Of a stretch of DNA of 46,235 nucleotides, positions 19,850-44,895 are shown piece after piece. The DNA comes from Gemmatimonadaceae bacterium. GTDB taxonomy: Bacteria; Gemmatimonadota; Gemmatimonadetes; Gemmatimonadales; Gemmatimonadaceae. Where the stretch lies: positions 1 through 46,235 of the forward strand of contig JADYYN010000101.1 in NCBI GenBank assembly GCA_020853635.1. The letters are read 5' to 3'. A program made the translations under genes and the position numbers. The first letter of the stretch is position 1. Each line of letters begins with the position of its first letter. Under the pieces are notes generated by a model, which made no database searches, was not told the DNA's origin, and worked only from the letters and a program-made list of their open reading frames with translations.

Positions 19850-22800
19850 CTATTCCGCCCGCAGCGCGATCCCCGGCGCGATCCGTAGCGCGCGCCACGC
19901 CGGCAGTGCCACCGCGGCCATACACGCCAGCGCGAGCACGGCCAGCGCGGCAAACAGTGAGCGTGGATCACCTGGCGTCAGGTCGAACAACAGCGAACGC
20001 ACCACCCGTGCGACGCTGAGCCCCGACGCGACGCCGAGCACGAGCCCCACTCCCACGATCCACGTCGCCTCGCCCGCGACCAGTCGATAGACGCGCGACG
20101 GACTCGCGCCCAACGCCACGCGGATGCCGATCTCCCGCGTGCGGCGCTGCACCGCGAACGACAGCGTGCCGTACAGCCCGATGGCCGCGAGGAACACACC
20201 GAGCGCGGAGAAGCCCGCTGCCAGTGCGCCGAGCAGCGTGGCATCGCGGGTACGCGCACGACGTTGTTCCTCAAGATTGCCGACGTGTTCCAGCGGCAAT
20301 CGCGGTGCGGCTTCATTCATTGCCCTGCGAACACCGGCGGCGACTGGCGACTCCTCGCCGGCGACGCGCGCGTAGACCCAATACGAGTAGCTGGGGTCCT
20401 CATGGTCCGCCGAGAGCCAGACGGTCCGGGTCGGCTCCTCCTTCGGGTCGACGTGCCGCGTGTCCGCGACCACACCGACGATCTCGTAGGTCGACTCGTT
20501 CATGGTGAATCGACGGCCGATCGCTCCCGCGCCAAGCGCGAAGTGTCGGACGAACGATTCGTTGACGACCACAGCGCGCAACCCGGCCCCACCATCCGTT
20601 GACGCGAGATCGCGTCCCGCGCGAAACGGGACGCCCGCGAGCGTGAGAGTGCCGGGTGCCACGATGTCGAATCCGACCGACGAGTCCTCTCCGGAACGTT
20701 CCGCTTCACCTTCCATTCGGATGGAGCTCCCGCTGCGCGAACCGGTCAGGAAGCCGGTCGACGCACTGCCGACCGCCTCGACGCCCGGCACGGTGGCGAC
20801 CGCGGCGAGCAACGTCCGCCGCATCGCGCTCTGTTGTGCGCCGTCCATGCGCAGGCGCCCCGGTGCGACGCTGATCGCCAACACGCGTGCTTCCCTGAGA
20901 CCCGTGTCCGTTCGGTTCACCCGCAGCAGGCTATGGATGAAGAGCGTCCCGACGACGAGGAAACACGCCGCCACCGCCACCTGGATCATCACCAGGACGC
21001 CGCGCATGCGCGCGACCACACGCGACTCCGTGACCTGCGCGGTGCCGCTGCGGAGTACCTGCATCAGGTCAGGGCGGCTCGCGATGATCGCTGGCACGAG
21101 ACCGCAGAGCACGCCGCAGCACAGCGTGACCGCCGCGGCGAACACCACGCTGCGCGTGTCCAAGGTAAACGCGATCTCGGTGAGCCACGGCGGAGCCAGG
21201 CGCTCGATGCCCCGAAGCGTCAGCAGCGCGAACACGAGGCCGGCGACGAGTCCCGAACCCGCGAGCATCAGCGATTCGACGAGCAGCAGACGGGAGAGCG
21301 TCCCTCGCTTCGCACCGAGGGCGAGGCGCAGTGCGAGTTCGCCGCGGCGGTGCGAGCTCCGGACCATCAGGAGCCCGGACACGTTCGCGACCGCGGCCAG
21401 CAGGAGCATGACGGTGGTGACGATCAGGCCGGTGAGCGGGGCGAACGCCTGCGCGCGTGTGCCTCGCCGACTGTTGACCAGCGGTGTCGCACGCAGCGTC
21501 TTGGTGGCGAACGCTGCACGTGTGGTCGAGTCGCGGAACGACTGCGCCGGCAGCTCGACCTGCTGCACGATCGGCTGATACCGTGCATTGAGACGCGCGA
21601 TCGCTTGCTCGGCGCTGAGTCCGTCGGCCATGCGCCCGAGCGTATAGAGGAAGTAGAGGTTCCGGCGCTCCGCTGCCGGATGCAGGAACGCCCACGCCAG
21701 CTCGCGCACCTGGGAGATCGGGACGTAGAGCTGCGGGTTCGATCCGAACGTGACGCCGCGAAACCCCGGTGGTGCCACGCCGATGATGGTGAGCGGTTGC
21801 GCGTTCACCGACAGCGTCCGGCCGATGATGTCGTCGCGCTCGCCGAGTCGACTGCGCCAGAACTCATGCGAGACGACGACCACGGGGTGCGCGCCCATGA
21901 TGCGGTCGTCGTCGGGCCCGATCAGTCGTCCGTGACGGGGCACGACGCCAAGCGCGGGGAAGAACCCGCCGGTGACCAGCTGCCCTGCTACGACGTCGGC
22001 ATCGATGCCCACCTCCACCACGAACGAGCCGGGCACGAAGGCTCCGATGGACCGGAATCCGTCGGGCTGCGCCGCAAGATCCCGCACCATCGGGAGACTG
22101 AGCACGACATCGCACCCGCCGGCGCCGCTGCAACTCTGTGACCCGGGATTCGGGCTTTGTCCGTCGATCATCACCACGCGCTCCGCGTCGGGGATCGCCG
22201 GGGTCCGGAGGAGTGCCTGATCGAAGAGTGAGAATGCGGCGGCTCCCGCGCCGATCGCGAGGGCCAGTGTCACGACGCAGGTGATGGCGACGATGGGCGT
22301 CCGCCGGAGCGACCGCGCTGAAACGACCACGTCCTGCCAGAGCGTGCGCTGGAACCGGTCGTACAGTCCACCGCGCGCCGGGGTGGTCTGCGACGGCGGC
22401 GCATGCGCGATTGCGGCCGGCTCCTGCATTCGTCGGAGCATGTCCGCTGCGGCGCGTGGTCGCCGCTCGGGGTCCTTCTCGAGGCACTGCATCACCAGCG
22501 CGGCCAGCCCGGGTGGCACATCGGGTCGCGCCCGATCGATCGCGCGTGGGACTTCCGTCAGGTGCGCGGTCAACACTTTGTGCGGTGCTTCGTGTCGGAA
22601 CGGCGGCGATCCCGCCAACAGCTCGTAGGCCAACACACCCCAGGCATACAGGTCCACGCGGTGGTCCGCCGACGGGTCTCCCGCGATCTGCTCCGGCGCC
22701 ATGTAGCTGGCCGTGCCGAGCGAGACACCCTCACGGGTGATGACGTTCGCCTCTGCCGCGCCGATGTTCGCCGCCGCGCGAGGACCACTGCGCACGGTCG

Positions 22801-23287
22801 CTCTCACCTTGGCGATCCCGAAGTCGGTCACCACCGCGGAGTGCGCCGTGAGCAGGACGTTGTCGGGCTTGATGTCGCGATGCGTGACCCCGTGACGATG
22901 CGCATGGTCCAGTGCGCGCAGCACATCGCCGAGGATCGCCACGCTCTCGCGGATGCTCAGCGGTCCCCGGTCCAATCGCGACCGCAGCGACTCCCCGTGC
23001 ACCAGTGGCATGACGAAGGCGGGCAGCGGCCCGACCTCACGCGCCGTGAGGATCGGGACGATCTGTGGATGTTGCAGTGCCGCAAGCACCGCGATCTCCC
23101 GACGGAATCGTTCGATGGACTCAGGCGTGAGCAGCAGCGGCGGCAATATCTTGATCACCACCTCGCGATCCAGTCGCCGATCGCGGGCGCGGAACACGGA
23201 CGACATCCCTCCACCGGGGAGCGCCACGACCTCGTCGAACTCGTCCCCGAGCGACGCGGTGAGACTGCTGAGCAGGGACTCGGTCAT
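19850..23287 (-). CDS. Ser/Thr kinase fused to ADOP-type permease
   Basis: The 1145-residue product has an N-terminal Hanks-type kinase (about residues 16-290: Lys46 in VVIKIL, HRDIKPDN 137-144, DFG 155-157, APE 197-199, all catalytic residues present). It is followed by a first TM helix (about 332-352) and the duplicated MacB periplasmic/FtsX layout of the acidobacterial-duplicated-orphan-permease family. The two FtsX blocks are visible as ALRLALGAKRGTLSRLLLVE and TREIGIRVALGASPSRVYRL. ADOP proteins are permease-like without their own ATPase; the substrate is unknown. The ATG is chosen where the kinase begins. No ATPase gene adjoins it. Confidence 0.92.
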   Translation of the reverse strand: MTESLLSSLTASLGDEFDEVVALPGGGMSSVFRARDRRLDREVVIKILPPLLLTPESIERFRREIAVLAALQHPQIVPILTAREVGPLPAFVMPLVHGESLRSRLDRGPLSIRESVAILGDVLRALDHAHRHGVTHRDIKPDNVLLTAHSAVVTDFGIAKVRATVRSGPRAAANIGAAEANVITREGVSLGTASYMAPEQIAGDPSADHRVDLYAWGVLAYELLAGSPPFRHEAPHKVLTAHLTEVPRAIDRARPDVPPGLAALVMQCLEKDPERRPRAAADMLRRMQEPAAIAHAPPSQTTPARGGLYDRFQRTLWQDVVVSARSLRRTPIVAITCVVTLALAIGAGAAAFSLFDQALLRTPAIPDAERVVMIDGQSPNPGSQSCSGAGGCDVVLSLPMVRDLAAQPDGFRSIGAFVPGSFVVEVGIDADVVAGQLVTGGFFPALGVVPRHGRLIGPDDDRIMGAHPVVVVSHEFWRSRLGERDDIIGRTLSVNAQPLTIIGVAPPGFRGVTFGSNPQLYVPISQVRELAWAFLHPAAERRNLYFLYTLGRMADGLSAEQAIARLNARYQPIVQQVELPAQSFRDSTTRAAFATKTLRATPLVNSRRGTRAQAFAPLTGLIVTTVMLLLAAVANVSGLLMVRSSHRRGELALRLALGAKRGTLSRLLLVESLMLAGSGLVAGLVFALLTLRGIERLAPPWLTEIAFTLDTRSVVFAAAVTLCCGVLCGLVPAIIASRPDLMQVLRSGTAQVTESRVVARMRGVLVMIQVAVAACFLVVGTLFIHSLLRVNRTDTGLREARVLAISVAPGRLRMDGAQQSAMRRTLLAAVATVPGVEAVGSASTGFLTGSRSGSSIRMEGEAERSGEDSSVGFDIVAPGTLTLAGVPFRAGRDLASTDGGAGLRAVVVNESFVRHFALGAGAIGRRFTMNESTYEIVGVVADTRHVDPKEEPTRTVWLSADHEDPSYSYWVYARVAGEESPVAAGVRRAMNEAAPRLPLEHVGNLEEQRRARTRDATLLGALAAGFSALGVFLAAIGLYGTLSFAVQRRTREIGIRVALGASPSRVYRLVAGEATWIVGVGLVLGVASGLSVARVVRSLLFDLTPGDPRSLFAALAVLALACMAAVALPAWRALRIAPGIALRAE

Positions 23288-23453
23288 CTCGTGGCGGCTC
23301 CCGGTGGACGCGTCATGCGACGGCGAGCGGCACGATCCTGTTCTGCCGCCCACGTCCGACAACGAGAGGCAAGGGAGCGTTGCGCGAGGTGTGACGAACC
23401 GATAGACGGCGGGACGAGCCGTGCGTCGGGTCTGGTCTTGCGCGCGGTCGAGG

Positions 23454-24608
23454 TTACCGCCGCACCGCGAACGGCACGCGGAACTCCTGATCCGCCCAAC
23501 GCAGCACGATGGCGGGCTGCACACTGTCGACCGCGATGCGGAACTGCTCCATGAACTCCGCCCGCCGACGCTCCATGGGGACACTGAGCAGATTCGCCGC
23601 CGCGTCGTACTGCGTGCCCCAGATGCCGCTGCGGCGGTTCACGATGAGATCGGCGCGCTCCGCCGAGATGCGGGTGAAGAGCGAGTACATGCCCGGCTCG
23701 AGCGTGCCGTTCGCGAACTGGATCGGTCGAGTGATCTGAAGCTGGGTCGCCGCGTTCGCCCCGGTGCGCCACACACTGTCGCCGAGCACACCGTCGCCGA
23801 AGACGTCGCGCCCGCGCACCGACGGCCGACCATAGTCGATCAGCAACTCCGCATCGCCGACGCGGGCCCGCACCGTGTCCCGTGGCGAGAGCAGTCCGCC
23901 GCGCACTCTGCTCCAGCGCTCCTGCGTCTCCACCAACACGCCGGGCTGCGCCGGCATCATCTCGATCTTGAGCGAGGTGCCACGCGCGTCGACGCTCACG
24001 ATCTCACCGTCCTCGCCGCGACGCATCTGTGCGAAACCGGCCGACAGTCGGTACTCCAGACTCCGTCCCTGTGTGCGCCGCGCGATGAATCGCCCACCGA
24101 TCCCGCCCAACGGTGCGATCCACGGAATGCTCACGCTGTCCGCGGCACTCGCGTCGACGCGTTGCGCCGCGAGCCAGAGCAGCGCACCGGAATTCGGCAA
24201 GGAGAGCAATGGGGCGGGCGCACGCACGCGTCGCTCTGCTCCGTCCGGCCCAGTTTGCATCAACACGCTGTCGCCGAACGCCGTGAGTGTCGCGGTGTTC
24301 TGCACGCGCCAGCCATCGGGACTCATCACCGACTGCGTCGCCTGCACCGACGCGAATCCGCCGCTCGGCGCCGCGCGGAGCAGGTACTCGAAGCGCATCA
24401 TCGCAGGCTCCCGGACCAGGATCACACCGCGCAGCGAGTCGCCTGCCCACAGCGCTTCTTCTACGGCGATGGTATCGCGGCCGAGCAGCGTGACGAATCG
24501 CAGTGCGCGTCCGCGGGCCTGCGTCAGCACACCCGGCTGGCTGTCGTCGACGCTGGGTCCGTTACCGACGAGGAGCGTGAGCACAACGGCGATGAGTGGC
24601 AAGCGCAT
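23454..24608 (-). CDS. DUF2911-domain exported protein
   Basis: The 384-residue product starts MRLPLIAVVLTLLVGNGPSV, a signal peptide, with CGGAG just upstream. The C-terminal ~150 residues are a DUF2911 domain: SPRDTVRARVGDAELLIDYG, RPSVRGRDVFGD, VWRTGANAATQLQITRPI, GMYSLFTRI and IWGTQYD. DUF2911 proteins are envelope proteins of unknown role, common in Bacteroidota and Gemmatimonadota. The N-terminal half is beta-rich and unassigned. It is transcribed in the same direction as the kinase-permease gene, 166 bases upstream, and is divergent from the propeller gene; an ATATATA tract lies just upstream. Confidence 0.82.
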   Translation of the reverse strand: MRLPLIAVVLTLLVGNGPSVDDSQPGVLTQARGRALRFVTLLGRDTIAVEEALWAGDSLRGVILVREPAMMRFEYLLRAAPSGGFASVQATQSVMSPDGWRVQNTATLTAFGDSVLMQTGPDGAERRVRAPAPLLSLPNSGALLWLAAQRVDASAADSVSIPWIAPLGGIGGRFIARRTQGRSLEYRLSAGFAQMRRGEDGEIVSVDARGTSLKIEMMPAQPGVLVETQERWSRVRGGLLSPRDTVRARVGDAELLIDYGRPSVRGRDVFGDGVLGDSVWRTGANAATQLQITRPIQFANGTLEPGMYSLFTRISAERADLIVNRRSGIWGTQYDAAANLLSVPMERRRAEFMEQFRIAVDSVQPAIVLRWADQEFRVPFAVRR

Positions 24609-24800
24609 GTGCACTCCGAAGTGGCTTCTATATATGTGTAGACGCGGAAGACCCGACGCGCTCGGCGGGCGTGACTTACCGGATACCCGCAACCAACCCG
24701 CTGCGTGACGGCAGGGCTTACATCGCGGGGCCGAGCGATACGCCGCGGGGGTGAAGCGTGGTATCTTTTCCTCACATCCCAACCCGCGCCCGGAGACCCC

Positions 24801-27254
24801 GTGTTCACGTCGCTCCTCCTCGCTGCATCCCTCCTCGCCCCACCGCCGTCCGTGCTGCCGCTCGACGGATTCGAGGAGCGCATGGTCGCCTTCGGCATGA
24901 CCGTCGCCATCAGTGGCGATCAGGCGTTCGTGGGTGAGCCGCGCGGCGGCTCGGCGCAGCTGCTCGACGCCGGCGGTGCGGCGCCGGGGATCGTGCACCA
25001 CTATCGCCGCGGACCCAACGGCTGGCGCCGCGTCGGCGCCCTGTTCGCCTCCGACAGCGCGGCGAGCGATGGGTTCGGTGCGGCGATCGCGGTCGATGAG
25101 CGCAGTCTGCTCATCGCACGCATCGGGTTCGGCAACGATGCCGACAGCACGCGCGGTTCGGTCCACACGTTCCGCAAACGTGCCGACGGTACGTGGGAGC
25201 GCACCGGGACCGTCCGTGCGCCGGTGCCGGCAGTGCGCGCCGCGTTCGGCGCCGCGCTGCTGCTCGCCGGCGACGTCGCGTATGTGGGCGCACCCACGGA
25301 CAAGGGCGGCGCCGTGCATGTGCTGCGTCGCAACACCGACGGCTCGTGGTCGGTGAGTGCGGCGCTGCCCACGCCCACGCTGGCGGCAACGGATCGGTTC
25401 GGTGCGGCGATCGCCATCGATGGGGATCGCCTCGTGGTCGGCGCGCCCGGACGGACCACCAATCGCGGCGCAGTGGTGATGTACTCGCGCGCCGCGGGCG
25501 GATCGTGGTCCGCCGACACCACCATCATGTTCTCGCGTGCGACGGACCAGTCGCGGTTCGGCGCGAGTGTGCTGCTCAAGGGCGACCGACTGATCGTCGG
25601 TGCGCCCGGCGCGCTACCCATCAACAATCCCGGCGGTCCGGCGGCCGGACTGGTCGCCGTGCTCGAGTACAGCCGAGTGACGGAGATCTGGCGCGAACGG
25701 CAGACCTTCACGTCGTTCCTCAACGCGTCGGCACGGTTCGGACAGACGCTGGCGATGGTCGGTACGGAACTCTGGGTGGGCGCACCTGCGAGCATGCGGG
25801 GCACGGGCCATGTGTTCCGGTTGCGTCAGGGCGCCGACGGCGTGTGGGGATCCATGCGCATGCTCGACGCAGGCTCGGTGGATGGTGGTGCACAGTTCTC
25901 GGCCGCGATGGCCGCTTCGAGTGATGCGGTGATCATCGGGATGCCGCAGGACGCGGGCGGTGAAGGCAGCGTGATGTTCTTCGCGCGCACGCCCGCCGGT
26001 GAGTGGACCTCACGTGGTGCGGTGTTCCCCTCGCCGGCCGTGAATCCGATGAAGGCCGTGACGGGGAAGGAGATCGAGTGTGCGACGTCGGGGAAGGTGA
26101 ACGAGTTCGAGTGCCAGGGCACGGCGCTCTCGTCGTTCTTGCCGATCGAGGCGATCGGCGGGCGCCGCGGCACCACACTCAATGACAACTGGGGCTGGAC
26201 CGATCCGGTGACCAAGCGCGAGATCGCACTCATCGGACGTTCGGACGGCACGTCGTTCGTCGACGTGAGTGACGCGGCGAACCCGCGCTACCTCGGCGAT
26301 CTCCCCAAGACCAAAGGCCAGCCCTCAGCAGCGTGGCGCGACATGAAGGTCTACAAGGACCACGTGTACATCGTCGCCGACAACGCGGGTGAGCACGGCG
26401 TGCAGGTGTTCGACCTCACGCGACTGCGCGCGGTGAAGACGCCGCAGACGTTCACCCCGGATGTCACCTACGACCGGATCGCCAGCGCGCACAACATCGT
26501 GAGCAACGTCGAGTCGGGCTTCATGTACGTGGTCGGCGGCAACGGGGGCGGCGAGACCTGTGGCGGTGGCTATCATATGATCGACGTGCGCGAACCCAAG
26601 AAGCCGAAGTTCGCCGGCTGCTACGGCGATCCCAAGACCGGCCTCGCCGGTACCGGCTACTCGCACGATGCGCAGTGTGTCATGTACCGCGGCCCCGACA
26701 CCAAGTACAAGGGGCGCGAGATCTGCATCGGCTCCAATGAGACGATGATCAGCATCGCCGATCTCACCGACAAGAAGGCGCCGGTCGCGATCTCGCGGGC
26801 GAGCTACCCCAACAACGCTTACGCGCACCAGGCGTGGCTCACCGATGACCATCGCTACCTGTACCTCAACGACGAAGGTGACGAGTCGCAGGGCGCCGGC
26901 GAGGCGGGCAAGGGCACGCGCACGCTCGTGTGGGACCTCGCCGATCTCTCCGACCCGATCCTCGTGAAGGAGTTCGTCGGCAACACGCGCGCGATCGACC
27001 ACAATCTGTATGTGCTCGGCGACCGCATGTATCAGGCGAACTACAACGCGGGCCTGCGCATCATCGACATCGCTGATCCGCGGAATCCCAAGGAAGTCGG
27101 ATACATCGATACCACGCCGGGTGGCAACAATCTGCCGGCGTTCATCGGGGTGTGGAGCATCTATCCCTACTTCGACAGCGGCACGATCGTCGTGACGAGC
27201 ATCGGCGAAGGCGTGTTCTTCGTGAAGGACCGCACCAAGCGCGTCGTGCAATGA
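24801..27254 (+). CDS. FG-GAP propeller plus choice-of-anchor-B protein
   Basis: The GTG start (VFTSLLLAASLLA signal peptide, CGGAGAC upstream) gives 817 residues. Residues ~18-410 carry seven FG-GAP-like repeats, each opening FG.., e.g. FGMTVAISGDQAFVGEP, FGAAIAIDGDRLVVGAPG, FGASVLLKGDRLIVGAPG: one complete seven-bladed propeller. The remainder matches the 'choice-of-anchor B' family: GRSDGTSFVDVSDAANPRYL, AWRDMKVYKDHVYIV, HNLYVLGDRMYQANYNAG, LRIIDIADP. It is exported and probably surface or periplasmic. The stop overlaps the next gene by ATGA. Its ligand is unknown. Confidence 0.87.
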   Translation: MFTSLLLAASLLAPPPSVLPLDGFEERMVAFGMTVAISGDQAFVGEPRGGSAQLLDAGGAAPGIVHHYRRGPNGWRRVGALFASDSAASDGFGAAIAVDERSLLIARIGFGNDADSTRGSVHTFRKRADGTWERTGTVRAPVPAVRAAFGAALLLAGDVAYVGAPTDKGGAVHVLRRNTDGSWSVSAALPTPTLAATDRFGAAIAIDGDRLVVGAPGRTTNRGAVVMYSRAAGGSWSADTTIMFSRATDQSRFGASVLLKGDRLIVGAPGALPINNPGGPAAGLVAVLEYSRVTEIWRERQTFTSFLNASARFGQTLAMVGTELWVGAPASMRGTGHVFRLRQGADGVWGSMRMLDAGSVDGGAQFSAAMAASSDAVIIGMPQDAGGEGSVMFFARTPAGEWTSRGAVFPSPAVNPMKAVTGKEIECATSGKVNEFECQGTALSSFLPIEAIGGRRGTTLNDNWGWTDPVTKREIALIGRSDGTSFVDVSDAANPRYLGDLPKTKGQPSAAWRDMKVYKDHVYIVADNAGEHGVQVFDLTRLRAVKTPQTFTPDVTYDRIASAHNIVSNVESGFMYVVGGNGGGETCGGGYHMIDVREPKKPKFAGCYGDPKTGLAGTGYSHDAQCVMYRGPDTKYKGREICIGSNETMISIADLTDKKAPVAISRASYPNNAYAHQAWLTDDHRYLYLNDEGDESQGAGEAGKGTRTLVWDLADLSDPILVKEFVGNTRAIDHNLYVLGDRMYQANYNAGLRIIDIADPRNPKEVGYIDTTPGGNNLPAFIGVWSIYPYFDSGTIVVTSIGEGVFFVKDRTKRVVQ

Positions 27255-30200
27255 GGCGTCGCGCGGTCGCACTGGCCGCGGTCCTCTACGCGGCGTGTGC
27301 CTCGGCCGGTGCGTCGTCGCCGGACGAGGGGCTGCGTCCGTCGAGCGGCGAGACTGACAAGCTGTACGTTGTGAACCAGGGCGGTGCGACGATCTCCGTG
27401 ATCGATCAACAGAAGCTCGCGGTCGACACGGTCCTCGATCTGCGCGCGCTCGGCTTCAGTGCGAACGCCAAGCCGCATCATGTCGCGGTCGAACAGGACG
27501 GCAGCTTCTGGTACGTCTCGCTCATCGGCGACGGCCGCGTGCTGAAGTTCGATCGCGCCAATCGTTTGGTGGGACAGGTGCAGCTGGAGACGCCCGGGCT
27601 GCTGGCGCTCGACCCGGTGCATGATTCGCTGTATGTGGGGCGGTCGATGACGGCGGTGAACCCGCCGCGTTCGCTCGGCGTGATCGCAAGGGGCGCGTTC
27701 ACACTGGTGGACGAACACGAGATCGTCATCGCGCGACCGCATGCACTCGTGGGGACACACGACGGGCGGTGGATCCACACCGCCTCGCTCGCCGAGAACC
27801 GGATCGCCTCGGTGGAGACGGCGACCGGGCGCGTGGTGCTGAGCACGATCGCCGGCGCGCCGCGGTCGCTCGTGCAGTTCGCGCTCTCGGCGGACGGGCG
27901 TCGAATGGTCGCGGGCGGCGAGCTCTCCAACACATTGCTCGTCTTCGATCTCACGCGTGCGCCGCCGCTGCAACCTGTGGCCGAGTACCCGCTGGAAGGG
28001 AAGCCGTGGGATCCGCGCTTCTCCACGGACGATCGCACGGTATTCGTCACGCTCCTCACGCGCAACGCGGTCGCCGAAGTGGACGTCGCCAGCGGGGCCA
28101 TGCGTCGTGTGCTCGAGGGTCGCCTCGCACAGCCGTACGCGATGCTGGTGCGTGCGGACGGGCGCTACGCGTTCGTGGTGAACCAGAACACCGGGGCGCT
28201 CGCTCCGGGGCAGAGCGGTCATGAGATGCACGGTATGGCCGGGCACACGTCGACCGATGGCTGGCTTTCGGTGATCGATCTTCGCGATGGGTCGCTCGTG
28301 ACTACGCTCATGCTCGGCAGCGGTCCAACGGGTCTGGGGGCGGCGCTGGTGCAGGCGCGCGTGCCGACGAGCACGCAGGTTCCGGCGCCTACCGCGCGCG
28401 GTGTGCCGACGCTCGTGCGCGAGGTGGCGCCGTTCGCCGTGCTCGACGAAGCGGGCGCGGCGATCGATGAACCGTTCCTCGGCGGGTTCGATGTGCCGCG
28501 GCCGCAGGTGGTGGATATCGATGGTGATGGCGACCTCGATCTGTTCGTGCAGGAGCGGCGCGGCGCGGTGATGTTCTTCGAGAACGTGCGCGGACGTTAC
28601 GAGTGGCGCAGCGATCGATTCCTCGGACTCGATGTCGGTGAGTGGTACCGCTTCGCCGACCTCGATGGTGACGGACTCGTGGACCTGCTCAGCGAGTCAC
28701 CCATCAGCCTCATCCGTGCCTGGCGCAACGTGGGCACCCGTGCGGCGCCCGCGTTCCGCGTGGTGGCCGACACGCTGCGCGACGGTGACAATCGCCCCAT
28801 CGCGGCGGACCGACAGAACATCCTGAACGTGGTCGATATCGACTGCAATGGCCGTCTCGACTTGTTCCTCGGTCGCGTCACGGGCACCATCGATCGATTC
28901 GAAGCGGTGCCGAGCAGCGCGCAGGATGGCGCGCCGCGATTCACCTTGCACACCGAACGGTTCGAGGGCATCGAGATCCTCGGCAACGTCCCTGGGCAGC
29001 CGAGTCGGACGGAGATCGGTGGGACGCGCCATGGCGCGAACACGATGGCGTTCGGTGACATGGATGGTGACGGTGACGTGGATCTGTTCTGGGGCGACTA
29101 CTTCGAGCCGGGACTGCTGCTCATCGAGAATCGCTCTACGGGATGCACCGTGCCGGCGATGCAGGAGCGTCCGCGGCGATTTCCCGACGACAGCACGCTG
29201 CTCACGAGCGGATACAACGCGCCGTCCATCGGCGACGTGGACGGCGACGGACTGCAGGACCTCGTGATGGGCGTGATCGGTGGTGCATTCACGCCGCGGC
29301 GCACATCGATCGCGAATCTGCATCTCGTGCGTCAGGTGTCGCGCGGGCGATTCGAGCGAGTGTCCGATCGATTGTTGCGGACCGTCGACGTGGGCAGTGA
29401 TGCGATGCCGCACTTGGCGGACTTAGACGGGGACGGCGACCTCGACCTCTTGGTGGGGAATCGCATCTCGCCGGAGTCGGACACCACGGCGTTCGTGAGC
29501 TGGTTCGAGAATACGGGAGGTCGCACGACGCCGGCGTTCCGTGCGCGCGGCACACTCCCCATGCGCGGCGAGTTCCACTACGCGCCGAGTGTGGTCGATC
29601 TCGATGGCGATGGCCGGCACGACCTCGCGCTCGGTACTTGGCGCGACAAGCTGCAGTGGTGGCGGAACACCGGGACGGCGCAGGTCCCGCGCTACGCACT
29701 CGCTGATTCAGCGTTGATCACACTCACGCGCGGCAGCAACACCACGCCGGCCTTCAGTGACCTCGATGGCGACGGTGACTTGGACCTGGTCGTCGGCGAG
29801 GCGAGTGGTCAGCTCAATCTGTACCGCAACGAAGGATCGTCCACCGCGCCGCGGTTCGTGTTGGTGACTGATACGCTTGATGGGATCGACGTCGGGCGGC
29901 GGAGTGCACCGACGTTCGTCGATCTCGATGGGGACGGTGCGGTGGAGCTTGTGGTGGGGTCGGAGGACGGTGGCCTGCAGCGTTGGCGCGTCGAGCGTGA
30001 GGGGGCGTGGGTAAGGTTCGTCCGTGACGCCGCGGTGGACGCCGCGACGTATACGTATTCGGCGGCGACGTTCGGTGATGTTGACGGCGATGGTCGTCCT
30101 GATGTGTTGGTGGGCACGCCGTCGGGTGGGTTGTTGTGGTATGGGACGGCGGGGCGTGGCGCGTCGGCGGATCGACAGGCGAGTGCGGAGCCAGCGGAGA

Positions 30201-31051
30201 TGCTCCTGTGGCCGAATGGTGCGCCCGATCCTAGGCCCGGGGTCGGGCCCGAGGCGATGCACTACGCCACGGACGAAGCATCGAAGACGCGAAAGCTCGT
30301 CGGCGGCAAGCCGTATATGTACATCGAGAACGTGACGCGCCCGACCATCACGGTCTTCTCGCCGACTGCGGGGAAGAACCGTGCGGCCGTGGTGGTGTTC
30401 CCCGGCGGTGGATTCAACGTGCTCGCGATGGACATCGAAGGCACCGAAGTGTGCGACTGGCTGGTCGCGCAGGGCGTGGCCTGCGTGCTGCTCAAGTACC
30501 GTGTACCTTGTCAGCATGTGGGCGCGTATCGTGACTGCCCGTCGGCGCATCAGGACGCACAGCGTGCGATGCGCATCGTGCGGTCGCGCGCCAGCGAGTG
30601 GAACATCGATCCGCGCCGGATCGGCGTGCTCGGGTTCTCGGCCGGCGCACACATGGCGATCATGAGCAGCACGCGGTTCGATCGGTCGTACGCGGCGGTG
30701 GACGCGGCGGACAGCGCGAGCTCGCGACCGGACTTCGCGCTGGTGTTGTATCCGGGGCGGATGGCGTACCGGCATTCGGGCTTCAAGCCGAATCCGGACA
30801 TCCGCGTCACGGCCACGACGCCGCCGACGTTTCTGATGCATGCGCGGGATGACAAGACGAACGCGGTGGAGAACTCGCTGCTGTATGCCGAGGCGCTTCG
30901 AAAGGCGGGTGTGGCGGCGGATGTTCACCTCTATGAGAAGGGTGGGCATGCGTTCGGGCTCCGGCAGACGGGGCAGGCTGCGTCGGAGTGGCCGCAGCGT
31001 GCGGAGGCGTGGCTCAAGCGCATTGGCGTGATCGGCAGCCAAGCGAAGTAG
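27251..31051 (+). CDS. YncE propeller + VCBS/FG-GAP repeats + esterase fusion
   Basis: One 1266-residue frame joins three modules. Residues ~1-380: a signal or lipobox-like start and a YncE/YVTN-type propeller (KLYVVNQGGATISVIDQQKL) with a His-rich insertion (GHEMHGMAGH). Residues ~405-965: about ten Ca-binding loops (DIDGDGDLD, DLDGDGLVD, DMDGDGDVD and others) of VCBS/FG-GAP type. Residues ~983-1266: an alpha/beta-hydrolase esterase (LLWPNGAPDPRPGVGPE, PGGGF oxyanion, GFSAG nucleophile ~1129, RDD acid, GGHAFGL histidine). The esterase matches stand-alone acetyl-esterase-like proteins that normally have their own signal peptide. It is translationally coupled to the preceding gene. Confidence 0.87.
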   Translation: MRRRAVALAAVLYAACASAGASSPDEGLRPSSGETDKLYVVNQGGATISVIDQQKLAVDTVLDLRALGFSANAKPHHVAVEQDGSFWYVSLIGDGRVLKFDRANRLVGQVQLETPGLLALDPVHDSLYVGRSMTAVNPPRSLGVIARGAFTLVDEHEIVIARPHALVGTHDGRWIHTASLAENRIASVETATGRVVLSTIAGAPRSLVQFALSADGRRMVAGGELSNTLLVFDLTRAPPLQPVAEYPLEGKPWDPRFSTDDRTVFVTLLTRNAVAEVDVASGAMRRVLEGRLAQPYAMLVRADGRYAFVVNQNTGALAPGQSGHEMHGMAGHTSTDGWLSVIDLRDGSLVTTLMLGSGPTGLGAALVQARVPTSTQVPAPTARGVPTLVREVAPFAVLDEAGAAIDEPFLGGFDVPRPQVVDIDGDGDLDLFVQERRGAVMFFENVRGRYEWRSDRFLGLDVGEWYRFADLDGDGLVDLLSESPISLIRAWRNVGTRAAPAFRVVADTLRDGDNRPIAADRQNILNVVDIDCNGRLDLFLGRVTGTIDRFEAVPSSAQDGAPRFTLHTERFEGIEILGNVPGQPSRTEIGGTRHGANTMAFGDMDGDGDVDLFWGDYFEPGLLLIENRSTGCTVPAMQERPRRFPDDSTLLTSGYNAPSIGDVDGDGLQDLVMGVIGGAFTPRRTSIANLHLVRQVSRGRFERVSDRLLRTVDVGSDAMPHLADLDGDGDLDLLVGNRISPESDTTAFVSWFENTGGRTTPAFRARGTLPMRGEFHYAPSVVDLDGDGRHDLALGTWRDKLQWWRNTGTAQVPRYALADSALITLTRGSNTTPAFSDLDGDGDLDLVVGEASGQLNLYRNEGSSTAPRFVLVTDTLDGIDVGRRSAPTFVDLDGDGAVELVVGSEDGGLQRWRVEREGAWVRFVRDAAVDAATYTYSAATFGDVDGDGRPDVLVGTPSGGLLWYGTAGRGASADRQASAEPAEMLLWPNGAPDPRPGVGPEAMHYATDEASKTRKLVGGKPYMYIENVTRPTITVFSPTAGKNRAAVVVFPGGGFNVLAMDIEGTEVCDWLVAQGVACVLLKYRVPCQHVGAYRDCPSAHQDAQRAMRIVRSRASEWNIDPRRIGVLGFSAGAHMAIMSSTRFDRSYAAVDAADSASSRPDFALVLYPGRMAYRHSGFKPNPDIRVTATTPPTFLMHARDDKTNAVENSLLYAEALRKAGVAADVHLYEKGGHAFGLRQTGQAASEWPQRAEAWLKRIGVIGSQAK

Positions 31052-31099: not shown

Positions 31100-31750
31100 A
31101 TGTCCAAACTCCGCGTCGAGAGCTTCACCATCTCCCTCGACGGATTCGGCGCCGGCCCCGACCAAGACCTGCAGAACCCACTCGGCGTCGGCGGCACCGC
31201 GCTGCACGGCTGGGCCTTCTCCACGCGGACCTTCCAGAAGAACGTGTTCGGCAAGGACGCCGGCGCGACTGAAGGCGTCGACGAGACGTTCGCGCAGCGC
31301 GGCTTCACCAATGTCGGCGCGTGGATCCTCGGCCGGAACATGTTCGGCCCGGTGCGCGGCCCCTGGCCCGATGAGAGCTGGCGGGGATGGTGGGGCGAGA
31401 ATCCGGTGTATCAGGTGCCGGTGTTCGTGCTCACGCACCACGCGCGCGCGCCGCTGGTGATGCAGGGCGGCACGACGTTCTACTTCGTGACCGAAGGCCC
31501 GACCGTCGCGCTCGAGCGCGCACGCGAAGCGGCGGGTGGGAAGGATGTGCGGGTGGGTGGTGGGGTGAACGTCATCCAGCAGTATCTGCGTCTCCGGGCG
31601 ATCGACGAGATGCATCTCGCCATCGCGCCGGTGCTGCTCGGCGCGGGGGAGCGGTTGTTCGAGGGCGTGAACATGCCGGAGTTGGGGTATGCGTGCACGC
31701 GACACGAGCGATCGGCGCTGGCGACGCATGTGGTGTTCACGCGGACGTGA
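31100..31750 (+). CDS. dihydrofolate reductase family (RibD C-like) protein
   Basis: The 216-residue product starts MSKLRVESFTISLDGFGAGP and continues to WILGRNMFGPVRGPW, VFVLTHHARAPL, FYFVTEGPTVALERAREAAG, DVRVGGGVNVIQQYL and DEMHLAIAPVLLGAG. This is the RibD C-terminal/DHFR fold: the strand-G-R-x-M-[FY] block, GG.....QYL and E..L..AP.LLG.G. These NADPH-dependent reductases are distinct from folate DHFR and usually of unknown substrate. It is a soluble single gene, 48 bases after the esterase fusion. Confidence 0.88.
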   Translation: MSKLRVESFTISLDGFGAGPDQDLQNPLGVGGTALHGWAFSTRTFQKNVFGKDAGATEGVDETFAQRGFTNVGAWILGRNMFGPVRGPWPDESWRGWWGENPVYQVPVFVLTHHARAPLVMQGGTTFYFVTEGPTVALERAREAAGGKDVRVGGGVNVIQQYLRLRAIDEMHLAIAPVLLGAGERLFEGVNMPELGYACTRHERSALATHVVFTRT

Positions 31751-42018: not shown

Positions 42019-43473
42019 TCAGCGCACCAACGCCGCGAGCGCCGCCTTGTCCAACAACCGCCCCTTCGACACCACCGCCTCGATCCGCTTGGTGTTGGTG
42101 ATGTCCACCAGCGGATCCGCCGACAACAGCACGAGATCCGCCAACATTCCCGGCGCGATCGTCCCCATCTCGCCCGCACGACCGAAGAACTCGGCCGGTC
42201 GCAGCGTCGCGGCGCGCAGCGCTTCCATGGGCGGGAGTCCCGCACGCACGAGCATCTCCATCTCGCTGTGCAGACTGTACCCCGGCGCCGCGAACCCGAT
42301 TGGCGTGTCTGTGCCCGCGCCGATCGGCACACCGGCCTCGAACATCATGCGCACGAGGCGCAGACTGAACTCGCCGTACGTGCTGTCGCGCGGCGGCGCA
42401 CCCATCTGCACGGTGCGCTCACCCGTCGCACGCCACTCGGCCGCCACATCCGCGGGGAGCTTGGCGAGGATCACCGACCAGTCGCTGCGCGTGAACGGTG
42501 AGCGCAGCCCCATCGCGTTGAGACGCAGCGTGGGCACCTGGATGGTGTTGCGCATCGCGGCGAGCACCTGCGCACATTCGCGCGCGTCGAACGCGGCCAC
42601 GGCGGCGAGTCGCTGCAGCGTGTGCAGGTTGGAGCGCAGTGTGAAACCCGACACCGCCTCGGGGTTGAGCATGCGCTGGCGCCGTTCGGCGAGCAACTTC
42701 TCTGGCTGCGCCGCGCAGTCCATCTCGATGTTGCGGAGATGCTCGAGCGACTGCACGCGCGGGCCCACCTCGCGCGCGCGCATCGCCAGCGGCACGTGTG
42801 CGTCGATCGGCAGTCCACGTGCGCGCGCCTCGGTGACGAGCACGTCGAACACCTCGGGCGTGACCATCTCGTAGATCTTCACGAAGTCCACGCCCGCGTC
42901 TGCGAGGCGCGCGATGTTGGCGCGCGCGGCGGCGACGTCGGGGTTCGCGATGCCGAGTGGCGGGCGGCCGGTGCCGTCGTAGACGACCGAGGCGCCGTCC
43001 ATGAGTGGGCCGGCGAAGAACACGCGCGGCGCGAGTGCACTGTCGGCGCGCAGGGTGCGCACGGCGGCGGTGACCAAGCCGAGTTCACCGCCCGTGTCGC
43101 GGATGCTGGTGATGCCGTGATTGAGGAAGAGGCCCGGCATCGCGGCGCTGAGGCGCGCGTCGTAGGTGAGGTGGACGTGGAAGTCCCACAGGCCCGGGAT
43201 GAGGAAGCGGCCGGTGCCGTCCACGGTGGTCTTTGCGGTGGACGATTGTGTGGCGTCGTTCACCGCCACGATGCGGCCGTTGGTGACGAGTACGGTGCGG
43301 GCTTTGCGCACGCCGTTCACCGCGTCGATGACGGTGACGTTCTTGATGGCGAGGTCGGCGGCAGTAGCAGTAGCAGTAGCGGGAGCGGTCGCGGCCGGAG
43401 GCTGGGCGCCGAGCGCCGGGGCCGCGAAGGCGCTCAGGAAGAGCAGGGCGAGGCGGGTGATCGACGAGCGCAT
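42019..43473 (-). CDS. secreted amidohydrolase
   Basis: The 484-residue product starts MRSSITRLALLFLSAFAAPA, a signal peptide, followed by a short Thr/Ala repeat (encoded by gtagca units) and the amidohydrolase fold. Visible are DLAIKNVTVIDAVNGVRKAR, the metal motif FHVHL in LWDFHVHLTYD, INITS-type GITSIRDTGGE, IDAHVP, EHLRN, GTDTP and the C-terminal GTIAPGMLADLVLLSADPL. It is probably a periplasmic imidazolonepropionase- or dipeptidase-like metal hydrolase. The frame is open without a stop into the upstream regulator, so this internal ATG is chosen because of the signal peptide. Confidence 0.87.
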   Translation of the reverse strand: MRSSITRLALLFLSAFAAPALGAQPPAATAPATATATAADLAIKNVTVIDAVNGVRKARTVLVTNGRIVAVNDATQSSTAKTTVDGTGRFLIPGLWDFHVHLTYDARLSAAMPGLFLNHGITSIRDTGGELGLVTAAVRTLRADSALAPRVFFAGPLMDGASVVYDGTGRPPLGIANPDVAAARANIARLADAGVDFVKIYEMVTPEVFDVLVTEARARGLPIDAHVPLAMRAREVGPRVQSLEHLRNIEMDCAAQPEKLLAERRQRMLNPEAVSGFTLRSNLHTLQRLAAVAAFDARECAQVLAAMRNTIQVPTLRLNAMGLRSPFTRSDWSVILAKLPADVAAEWRATGERTVQMGAPPRDSTYGEFSLRLVRMMFEAGVPIGAGTDTPIGFAAPGYSLHSEMEMLVRAGLPPMEALRAATLRPAEFFGRAGEMGTIAPGMLADLVLLSADPLVDITNTKRIEAVVSKGRLLDKAALAALVR

Positions 43474-44895
43474 GGAGGGTCTCGGGCTCGGGCGACGGGT
43501 GGCCTGCGGCACGATCAGCGTCGCCAGTTCCTTGATCGCTGCGGTGATCACCGGCTCCGCACTGCGCGCATACCCGATGATCAGCGCCGGCAGCCGTTTC
43601 GTCCGCGTCATCTCGTACGCACCAAGATAGTTCAACGCGATGCCCTCGCGCTCGGCGGCGCGCACGGTCGCGCGTTCGTCGCATCCCTTGGGGAGTCGGA
43701 CCACCGCATGCAGTCCGGCCGCGATACCGCAGACGGACGCCTCGGGCATGTACCGCTCCACCGCCGCGACCAGCGCATCACGGCGCGCGCGATAGGTGCT
43801 GCGCATCCGTCGCAGATGGCGGTCGAGTTCGCCGCGCGCGAGGAACTCCGCAAACGCGTGCTGCTCGATGCGTGGCACTCCGAAGTCGGCGCTGCGCTGC
43901 TCGGCCTGCACGGGCTCGATCAGCCGCGGCGGCAGCACGAGCCATCCGAGCCGGAGCGCCGGTGCCAGCGTCTTGCTCGCCGTCCCGCCATACACGATGC
44001 GCTCGGGGTCGAGTGGCTGGAGCGCACCCACAGGTGCCCGATCGTACCGATACTCGGCGTCGTAGTCGTCCTCGATGAGGACGGTGTTGCGACGACGGGA
44101 CCACTCGAGCAGTGCCGCGCGTCGTTCACCCGACAGCACCGCGCCGCTCGGGTACTGATGGGCGGGCGTCACGATCACGGCGTCGGGTCGGAGCTGGTCG
44201 AGCAGGTCGACGCGGAGACCGTCATCGTCGACCGGCACCGGGATCCGCTTGAGGCCGAGTCGCTCGACTACATCCCACGCTTCGACGAAACACGGATCCT
44301 CGATCGCGATGCGTTTGGCGCCACCAGCGCGCAGCGCGCGAAGGAGCAGACTGCGCCCCTGCGCCCAGCCGCTGGTGATGACCACGCGCGCGGGATCCAC
44401 GTCGACACCGCGCACGCGTGCGAGGTACTCGCCCAGCGCTTGTCGCAACACGAGTGCACCGTGCGGATCGCTGTAGCCGAGCGCGGCATCGGGCATGTGG
44501 CGCAGCGCGTCGCGTGTGGCGCGCAGCCAAGCGCCGCGCGGGAAAGCCGAGAGATCCGGGACGCCAGGTCGTAGATCGATCCGCGGCTCACGGGCGGGCG
44601 GTTCACGTCGCACGCGGGATGCCGTCGCCGGCCCGACACAGTCCGAGACGTGCGGGCGCGCGCCCTGTCGCACACTCAGGAAGCCTTCGGCCGCCAACTG
44701 CCCGTACGCCTCGACCACCACCGGGCGCGAGATGCCGAGTTCACCGGCGAGGTCGCGCGTGGAGGGGAGGCGCGCGCCGGGCGGCAGCGAGCCATCGCGG
44801 ATCAGCGCTCGCAGTTGGTCCTCGAGCTGTCGGCCGAGGGTACGGCCGCTGCCGCGTTGCATGCTGAGGAGCAGGTCGAGCGGGGAACTGGTCAA
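43474..44895 (-). CDS. MocR/PdxR-type regulator, no own stop codon
   Basis: The TTG start (GGAG eight bases upstream) gives a GntR winged helix (residues ~14-80: LEDQLRALIRDGSLPPGARL, PSTRDLAGELGISRPVV). It is followed by a fold-type I aminotransferase domain with LITP-like VTPAHQYPSG, EDDYDAEYRY and the PLP lysine in GTASKTLAPALRLGW (Lys308). MocR proteins sense PLP or amino compounds and often control transporters. The natural end is near residue 461, but the frame runs through 13 more codons straight into the amidohydrolase signal peptide. It is divergent from the EamA transporter, its likely target. Confidence 0.87.

Follow-up and report, generated by a model that had tools for sequence, protein, structure and literature searches.

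A beta-propeller, an FG-GAP/VCBS region, and an esterase encoded as one gene in a Gemmatimonadaceae contig

Proteins that carry a beta-propeller and an alpha/beta-hydrolase in one chain are known from the S9 family, which includes prolyl oligopeptidase and DPP4. In integrin-type propellers calcium sites stabilize the blades (PMC3192720), and the esterase BD-FAE strips both ferulate and acetate from xylan substrates (PMC8165983). Here we describe a gene in a 46,235-nucleotide (nt) stretch of DNA, contig JADYYN010000101.1 of the Gemmatimonadaceae assembly GCA_020853635.1 (referred to as the window). In the assembled window, three parts, each a gene of its own in relatives, are fused in frame: a propeller, an FG-GAP/VCBS region (together called the scaffold), and a BD-FAE-type esterase. 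As a preliminary description based on the letters of the sequence had said, the gene is a single ATG-to-stop open reading frame (ORF) of 1266 amino acids (aa), with no internal stops. Its ATG at 27251 overlaps the TGA of the preceding choice-of-anchor B gene. The features are as follows, with residues numbered in the fused protein.

27251..31051, + strand: fused gene, 1266 aa, in the order signal peptide, propeller, VCBS, esterase (ORF and relatives' loci)
27251..27331, + strand: N-terminal export signal, residues 1 to ~27 (hydrophobic 10-mer mean 2.37; alignment)
27341..28345, + strand: YVTN/YncE-like beta-propeller, residues 31-365 (identity to separate propeller ORFs; model and Foldseek)
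28214..28246, + strand: His/Met-rich loop SGHEMHGMAGH, residues 322-332, inside the propeller (sequence; partly kept in relatives)
28346..28414, + strand: join 1, residues 366-388 (no propeller stop, no VCBS start, and no signal peptide for the VCBS part)
28415..30148, + strand: FG-GAP/VCBS region with ten calcium-type loops, residues 389-966 (PF13517, PF01839, loop pattern)
30149..30202, + strand: join 2, residues 967-984 (no signal peptide for the esterase and no WQP..GH start; low model confidence)
30203..31048, + strand: BD-FAE-type alpha/beta-hydrolase, residues 985-1266 (PF20434; identity to the esterase of genome G154; 6a6o, E 6.9e-39)
30638..30640, + strand: catalytic Ser1130, in GFSAG (motif and alignment)
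30851..30853, + strand: probable catalytic Asp1201 (the esterases compared carry Asp in this alignment column)
30947..30949, + strand: catalytic His1233, in GGHAFGL (motif and alignment)
24705..27254, + strand: upstream choice-of-anchor B family gene (FG-GAP_2 and TIGR04312), start codon uncertain (TIGR04312, PF14312)
31100..31750, + strand: gene with a RibD_C (dihydrofolate-reductase-like) domain (PF01872, 69 bits)

Relatives were sought in 179 genomes of the family, 288 of the order, an even draw of 395 from the phylum, and, with residues ~584 onward, an even draw of 198 from the class; these sets overlap. A genome-collection scan with six peptide patterns was also made, and the best 80 of its 321 confirmed stretches were kept. 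Because only the best few candidates were scored per genome (2 in the order and phylum searches, up to 3 in the family, 5 in the class, and 8 in an esterase-only search), a distant fusion could be missed, and the phylum matches are those listed. The relatives were of two kinds, matching either residues 1 to ~1000 or only ~961 onward. Outside the record of the window itself, none of the ORFs in the examined loci joins scaffold and esterase in one frame. Among the matches listed for the family, order, phylum, and class genomes (metagenome contigs were not part of these sets), none spans both, and none shows the three-part order that the preliminary description suggested looking for in other Gemmatimonadota.

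The first two parts of the protein are separate genes in these relatives. There were 29 triplet loci from 29 genomes, and both propeller and VCBS were found in 28 of them (a count that includes L010, with a fragmentary propeller near a contig end). In all 28 the two are separate ORFs, and in 26 of the 28 they lie in different frames. The 70 residues that precede the VCBS part contain a signal-like stretch in 27 of the 28 (L120 lacks one), whereas the corresponding value in the window, 1.45, falls short of the limit of 2.0. The 29th locus (L131, genome G302) has a VCBS ORF and no propeller ORF of at least 100 aa; its match in the phylum search spans query residues 6-996 with two stops inside. 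An old propeller-VCBS fusion was considered on account of long stop-to-stop frames (G366, G374, G313, and others) and rejected, since in 17 of 18 triplet loci these turned out to be distinct ORFs that overlap. In L139 and L144 the propeller and VCBS genes share a frame with a stop between them; loss of that stop alone would yield a fused frame that keeps its inner signal.

Conserved anchors on either side of join 1 show what was removed. They are 141 nt apart and in frame in the window, versus 170 to 280 nt apart, and never by a multiple of three, in the six of seven relatives where both anchors were located. The extra DNA of the relatives contains the propeller stop, the VCBS start, and the VCBS signal peptide. 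This join at residues 366-388 was absent from the preliminary description, which had the esterase captured by a large scaffold. The esterase is indeed joined to it, but the scaffold is not one old unit; because its two halves are separate ORFs in relatives, two fusions are needed.

The third part is likewise a free-standing gene elsewhere. We collected 85 esterase loci, 77 from the genome-collection scan and 8 from the family search, representing 84 distinct sequences (L015 and L037 are the same). None of the 85 has this scaffold in the esterase frame, and no scaffold-like ORF was present in these stretches (3.0 kb to ~14 kb, median 12.8 kb). The nearest relative, in G154, is 82% identical over 278 residues. 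Within 60 residues upstream of the esterase a strongly hydrophobic stretch was found in 81 of the 85 loci; the window has none there. Thus, the statement that this esterase normally occurs as a separate protein with its own signal peptide holds for most loci, with a qualification: of 12 esterase frames with long extensions, 10 were scanned, and 4 carry another domain while 6 match hydrolase models only. The family is occasionally modular, yet not with propellers in the loci examined. L048, L084, and L101, close relatives in Planctomycete-group records, have C-terminal HEAT repeats, and L062 (443-2323), in an Acidobacteriota record, has an N-terminal beta-lactamase-like domain.

The export signal expected in front of the esterase is gone at join 2, as it is in front of the VCBS part. 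Both joins are in frame and have lost the stop and the spacer as well. The best 10-residue hydrophobicity mean was 2.37 at the N terminus, 1.45 at join 1, and 1.17 before the esterase, so by this measure neither join has a strongly hydrophobic signal-like stretch; for join 2 this agrees with the preliminary description. That account also held that relatives ending before residue ~970, together with an indel or stop near 30180, would mean two genes. The VCBS matches of relatives do end near residues 964-969. A simple missed stop or indel near 30180 was rejected, because what the free esterase has at its start, a signal peptide and its opening residues, is missing here: whole signal peptides are gone at the joins, not just stops.

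Each part is recognizable. The calcium-loop pattern DxDGDGxxD, of which about ten copies had been described, matched exactly ten times, at residues 422, 470, 529, 603, 662, 724, 783, 837, 891, and 943; in 1000 shuffles of the protein it matched 0.002 times on average and at most once per shuffle. The VCBS region scored 138 bits with FG-GAP_3 (PF13517; 26.9 needed) and 100 bits with PF01839. In the esterase, BD-FAE (PF20434) scored 54.4 bits, above its cut-off of 26.8. The motifs PGGGF, GFSAG, and GGHAFGL named earlier were located at residues 1051, 1128, and 1231. Ser1130, Asp1201, and His1233 sit in conserved columns of an alignment in which some tail residues of the VCBS rows fall in esterase columns. 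For the pectin acetylesterase PaeX (NF041902) the window scored 183.3 bits and the free relative L114 198.8, both below the cut-off of 550.

Structures were modeled for two pieces folded separately, not for the full 1266-aa chain as a whole. The AlphaFold model of the propeller (m5c06509bb97d), with a predicted local distance difference test (pLDDT) score of ~90 across most of residues 41-310, had the YVTN propeller 1l0q as its best PDB match in Foldseek (template modeling [TM] score 0.68); against YncE (7seu) the TM scores were 0.60/0.73. No Pfam propeller model reached its threshold (Lactonase gave 18.0 bits, cut-off 21.7), and TIGR03866 gave 39.9 bits, below its cut-off of 287.3. The propeller fold is therefore well supported, but its family name is not. 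The propeller is 57 to 77% identical to the separate full-length propeller ORFs of relatives. NosZ structures, among other propellers, make up much of its fold list; kinship with nitrous-oxide reductase (NF052460, lactonase-type) was rejected at 35.5 bits versus 700. The SGHEMHGMAGH loop, which relatives conserve in part, may be a binding site for copper or another metal.

The model of residues 385-1266 had a mean pLDDT of 80.6. Its best PDB match was 6a6o, an acetyl ester-xyloside hydrolase (32% identity, Foldseek), followed by the bifunctional GH43-CE 6mly and by S9 peptidases (2ecf, DPP4). Going by their titles, the nearest solved relatives (6a6o and 7dwc, BTAxe1) act on acetylated sugars. 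The pLDDT fell below 50 at residues 968-979 (584-595 of the model), that is, at join 2, with folded flanks on either side, and in a few short loops.

The neighborhood is that of the scaffold relatives on one side. The upstream gene scored 435.4 bits with TIGR04312 (cut-off 100) and 91 bits with PF14312, and a choice-of-anchor B relative lies beside propeller and VCBS in seven of seven loci, plus 18 of 18 further triplet stretches. FG-GAP and propeller genes are also described as co-localized near hydrazine-synthase-like genes (PMC12758564), which only shows that such gene neighborhoods recur. We found no function for the choice-of-anchor B/propeller/VCBS triplet in the open-access papers searched. 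In L146 (G263), choice-of-anchor B genes flank propeller and VCBS on both sides, and G257 has two VCBS copies on one contig (C79). On the other side, the window has the RibD_C gene (31100-31750) immediately downstream of the esterase. G154 has the two in the opposite order, its RibD_C gene (L114, 9689-10390) being the immediate upstream neighbor of the esterase; the identities to the window are 85% and 81%, with 85% for RibD_C. The swap would be accounted for by a tandem duplication and a later deletion, or by movement as a circle. Elsewhere in the window, 19853-23584 on the reverse strand encodes, in one 1244-aa protein, a Ser/Thr kinase joined to a duplicated permease of the ADOP family (TIGR03434, 669 bits versus 622).

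Read by eye, the VCBS signal peptide of relatives is lipoprotein-like in five of eight cases. The N terminus of the fused protein contains VLYAAC (LYAAC), which looks lipobox-like, with a Tyr at -3 that is off the pattern that we take to define a lipobox. In L118 (11959-13122, reverse strand) it is the propeller and not the VCBS protein that looks like a lipoprotein (by eye, VTAC), whereas in the five lipobox-like VCBS loci it is the other way round.

We somewhat favor the reading that the fusion of three genes produced one exported, scaffold-tethered carbohydrate-ester hydrolase. Two of the source genes, for an exported YVTN-type propeller and an exported FG-GAP/VCBS protein, would have been neighbors in the Gemmatimonadota choice-of-anchor B triplet, and the third would have been a stand-alone exported BD-FAE-type esterase located away from it. 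Between the first two, the stop, spacer, and signal peptide would have been lost, and the mature esterase would have been placed straight after the VCBS part. The whole chain would then be exported once, through the N-terminal signal. Calcium would stiffen the VCBS part, and the two propeller-type parts may bind the target of the ancestral pair, either a surface partner or a glycan. The C-terminal Ser-Asp-His enzyme would remove acetyl, feruloyl-type, or similar esters from a polysaccharide or glycoside nearby. Docking through propellers and deacetylation of a polysaccharide, as first suggested, remain predictions. The gain would be a fixed 1:1 stoichiometry and the tethering of an enzyme that otherwise diffuses.

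Several observations weigh against this reading. The gene is in a single draft genome (83.66% complete, 3.45% contaminated, 295 contigs), and none of the 16 other genomes of the same genus had a match at 1e-30, so there is no sister copy to confirm the fusion. The linkers have a G+C content of 0.77 and 0.76, compared with 0.66 to 0.68 for the parts, an excess that would be expected for short Ala/Pro/Arg-rich linkers. The model is unreliable on how the parts pack (predicted TM score 0.64). Pfam scans of 11 other window frames gave no match to a sugar-degrading enzyme model. Scaffold and esterase occur together in 3 of the 288 order genomes, one of them the window's own, when 1.9 are expected (P = 0.29; 39 genomes with VCBS at E ≤1e-40 and 14 with the esterase at E ≤1e-60). 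G009 narrowly misses the esterase limit (E 2.5e-57) and would be the fourth such genome under a slightly laxer one. A scaffold-esterase partnership as a general rule was rejected because there is no such excess in the order; the partnership looks lineage-specific, as co-occurrence elsewhere is not above chance.

If the fusion were an assembly or consensus artifact, either the contig would join unrelated stretches or an indel would hide stops, and the genes would be separate in the organism. The confinement to one draft genome, the G+C-richer linkers, and the order of esterase and RibD_C relative to G154 would all fit, as would another run-on frame, of a different kind, elsewhere in this contig. 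That frame (42022-44895, reverse strand, 958 aa) joins a MocR/PdxR-like regulator (residues ~1-460) to an amidohydrolase (~500-958) and retains an inner signal-like stretch at its join. Its matches in other genomes each cover one of the halves, and a free amidohydrolase 92% identical to the corresponding part lies on contig C243 of this assembly; the run-on is a lost stop or a sequence error. In the fused gene, by contrast, both inner signal peptides are missing, which an indel or a lost stop would have left in place, and two chimeric joins would each need to land in frame near the start of a mature protein. The third-codon-position G+C (GC3) is 0.84, 0.79, and 0.83 across propeller, VCBS, and esterase, and codon-usage distances among the three are 0.072 to 0.078, compared with 0.064 to 0.122 to five other window genes. 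A search of the genome for further copies, made with the DNA of join 2 and not of join 1, found no second copy (longest other match, 27 bases), and the only repeats found around join 2 were the FG-GAP repeats. The even composition and the unique join 2 speak against a chimera, and the upstream gene fits the triplet. A plasmid search with the join region gave two short hydrolase matches. We regard an artifact as rather unlikely, and give it that much weight because of the single draft genome and the second run-on frame.

A real fusion that brought no new joint function, arising as a neutral accident and perhaps cleaved after export so that the parts keep their old jobs, is also unlikely in our judgment, if slightly easier to accept. 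It would agree with the chance-level co-occurrence of scaffold and esterase, with the low-confidence linker at join 2, and with the occurrence in one genome among those searched. But a decaying accident need not have had both joins trimmed of signals, nor have kept its motifs intact and its parts at 65 to 82% identity to their nearest relatives. We consider it very improbable that the VCBS part is a lid or gate on the hydrolase, which would make the protein a new analogue of the propeller-hydrolases of the prolyl oligopeptidase/DPP4 type. Many S9 peptidases appear in the Foldseek list for the fused model, and Peptidase_S9 scored 39.7 bits (versus 22.6) on the hydrolase; however, the S9 alignments are poor over the whole chain (TM 0.15 to 0.24, root mean square deviation ~23 to 27 Å), the propeller-type part is FG-GAP and not S9, and the join between VCBS and hydrolase is of low confidence. 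Quite improbable, too, is the most far-reaching form of the tethered-hydrolase reading, in which two subunits of a phylum-wide Gemmatimonadota complex would have been welded and armed with catalysis, creating a newborn surface enzyme, a substrate-docked deacetylase, and, at its boldest, reinventing the propeller-gated plan of S9.

When neighboring genes are fused, this is a classic sign of contact between their products. From the fused gene one would predict that in other Gemmatimonadota at least the propeller and the VCBS protein pair up outside the cytoplasm. Among the Gemmatimonadota genomes searched the triplet is common, and the fusion shows one site at which an enzyme can be attached to the propeller and VCBS proteins. 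The gene is, moreover, a clear-cut double fusion, with neither internal export signal left.

Compared with described proteins, the domains are known and the combination is new, reached by two fusions in one genome. Searches of the open-access literature showed no report of such a combination, including VCBS with an esterase and Gemmatimonadota with VCBS. The preliminary proposal of a new architecture stands for the three-part order, which has no listed match elsewhere; the plan of a propeller with an alpha/beta-hydrolase is old (S9; 6mly). The type of propeller sets the window protein apart from the S9 family: no S9 propeller model was among the Pfam matches, the propeller-type parts match FG-GAP models and YVTN-type structures, and there is no sign of a gated cavity. 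The fusidic acid esterase FusH (NF000157) gave 26.3 bits to VCBS residues 782-959, far below the cut-off of 999; the matched segment is probably its repeat region, and FusH is presumably a different type of hydrolase with its repeats at the C end. BD-FAE esterases (PF20434; 6TKX, 6a6o, 7dwc, and PaeX) share the catalytic domain, the Ser-Asp-His triad, and the PGGG motif, but the solved single-domain members have no propeller-type scaffold. GH43 has a propeller fold, and the GH43-CE of Bacteroides eggerthii (6mly) likewise combines a BD-FAE-like esterase with a second domain in a single chain; its propeller is itself a glycosidase, whereas the propeller-type parts of the window protein match scaffold-type models only. 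In the Gemmatimonadota triplet, unlike in the window, the genes are separate and the examined loci have no esterase, but the order and the upstream gene are the same, and the first three quarters of the protein derive from the triplet.

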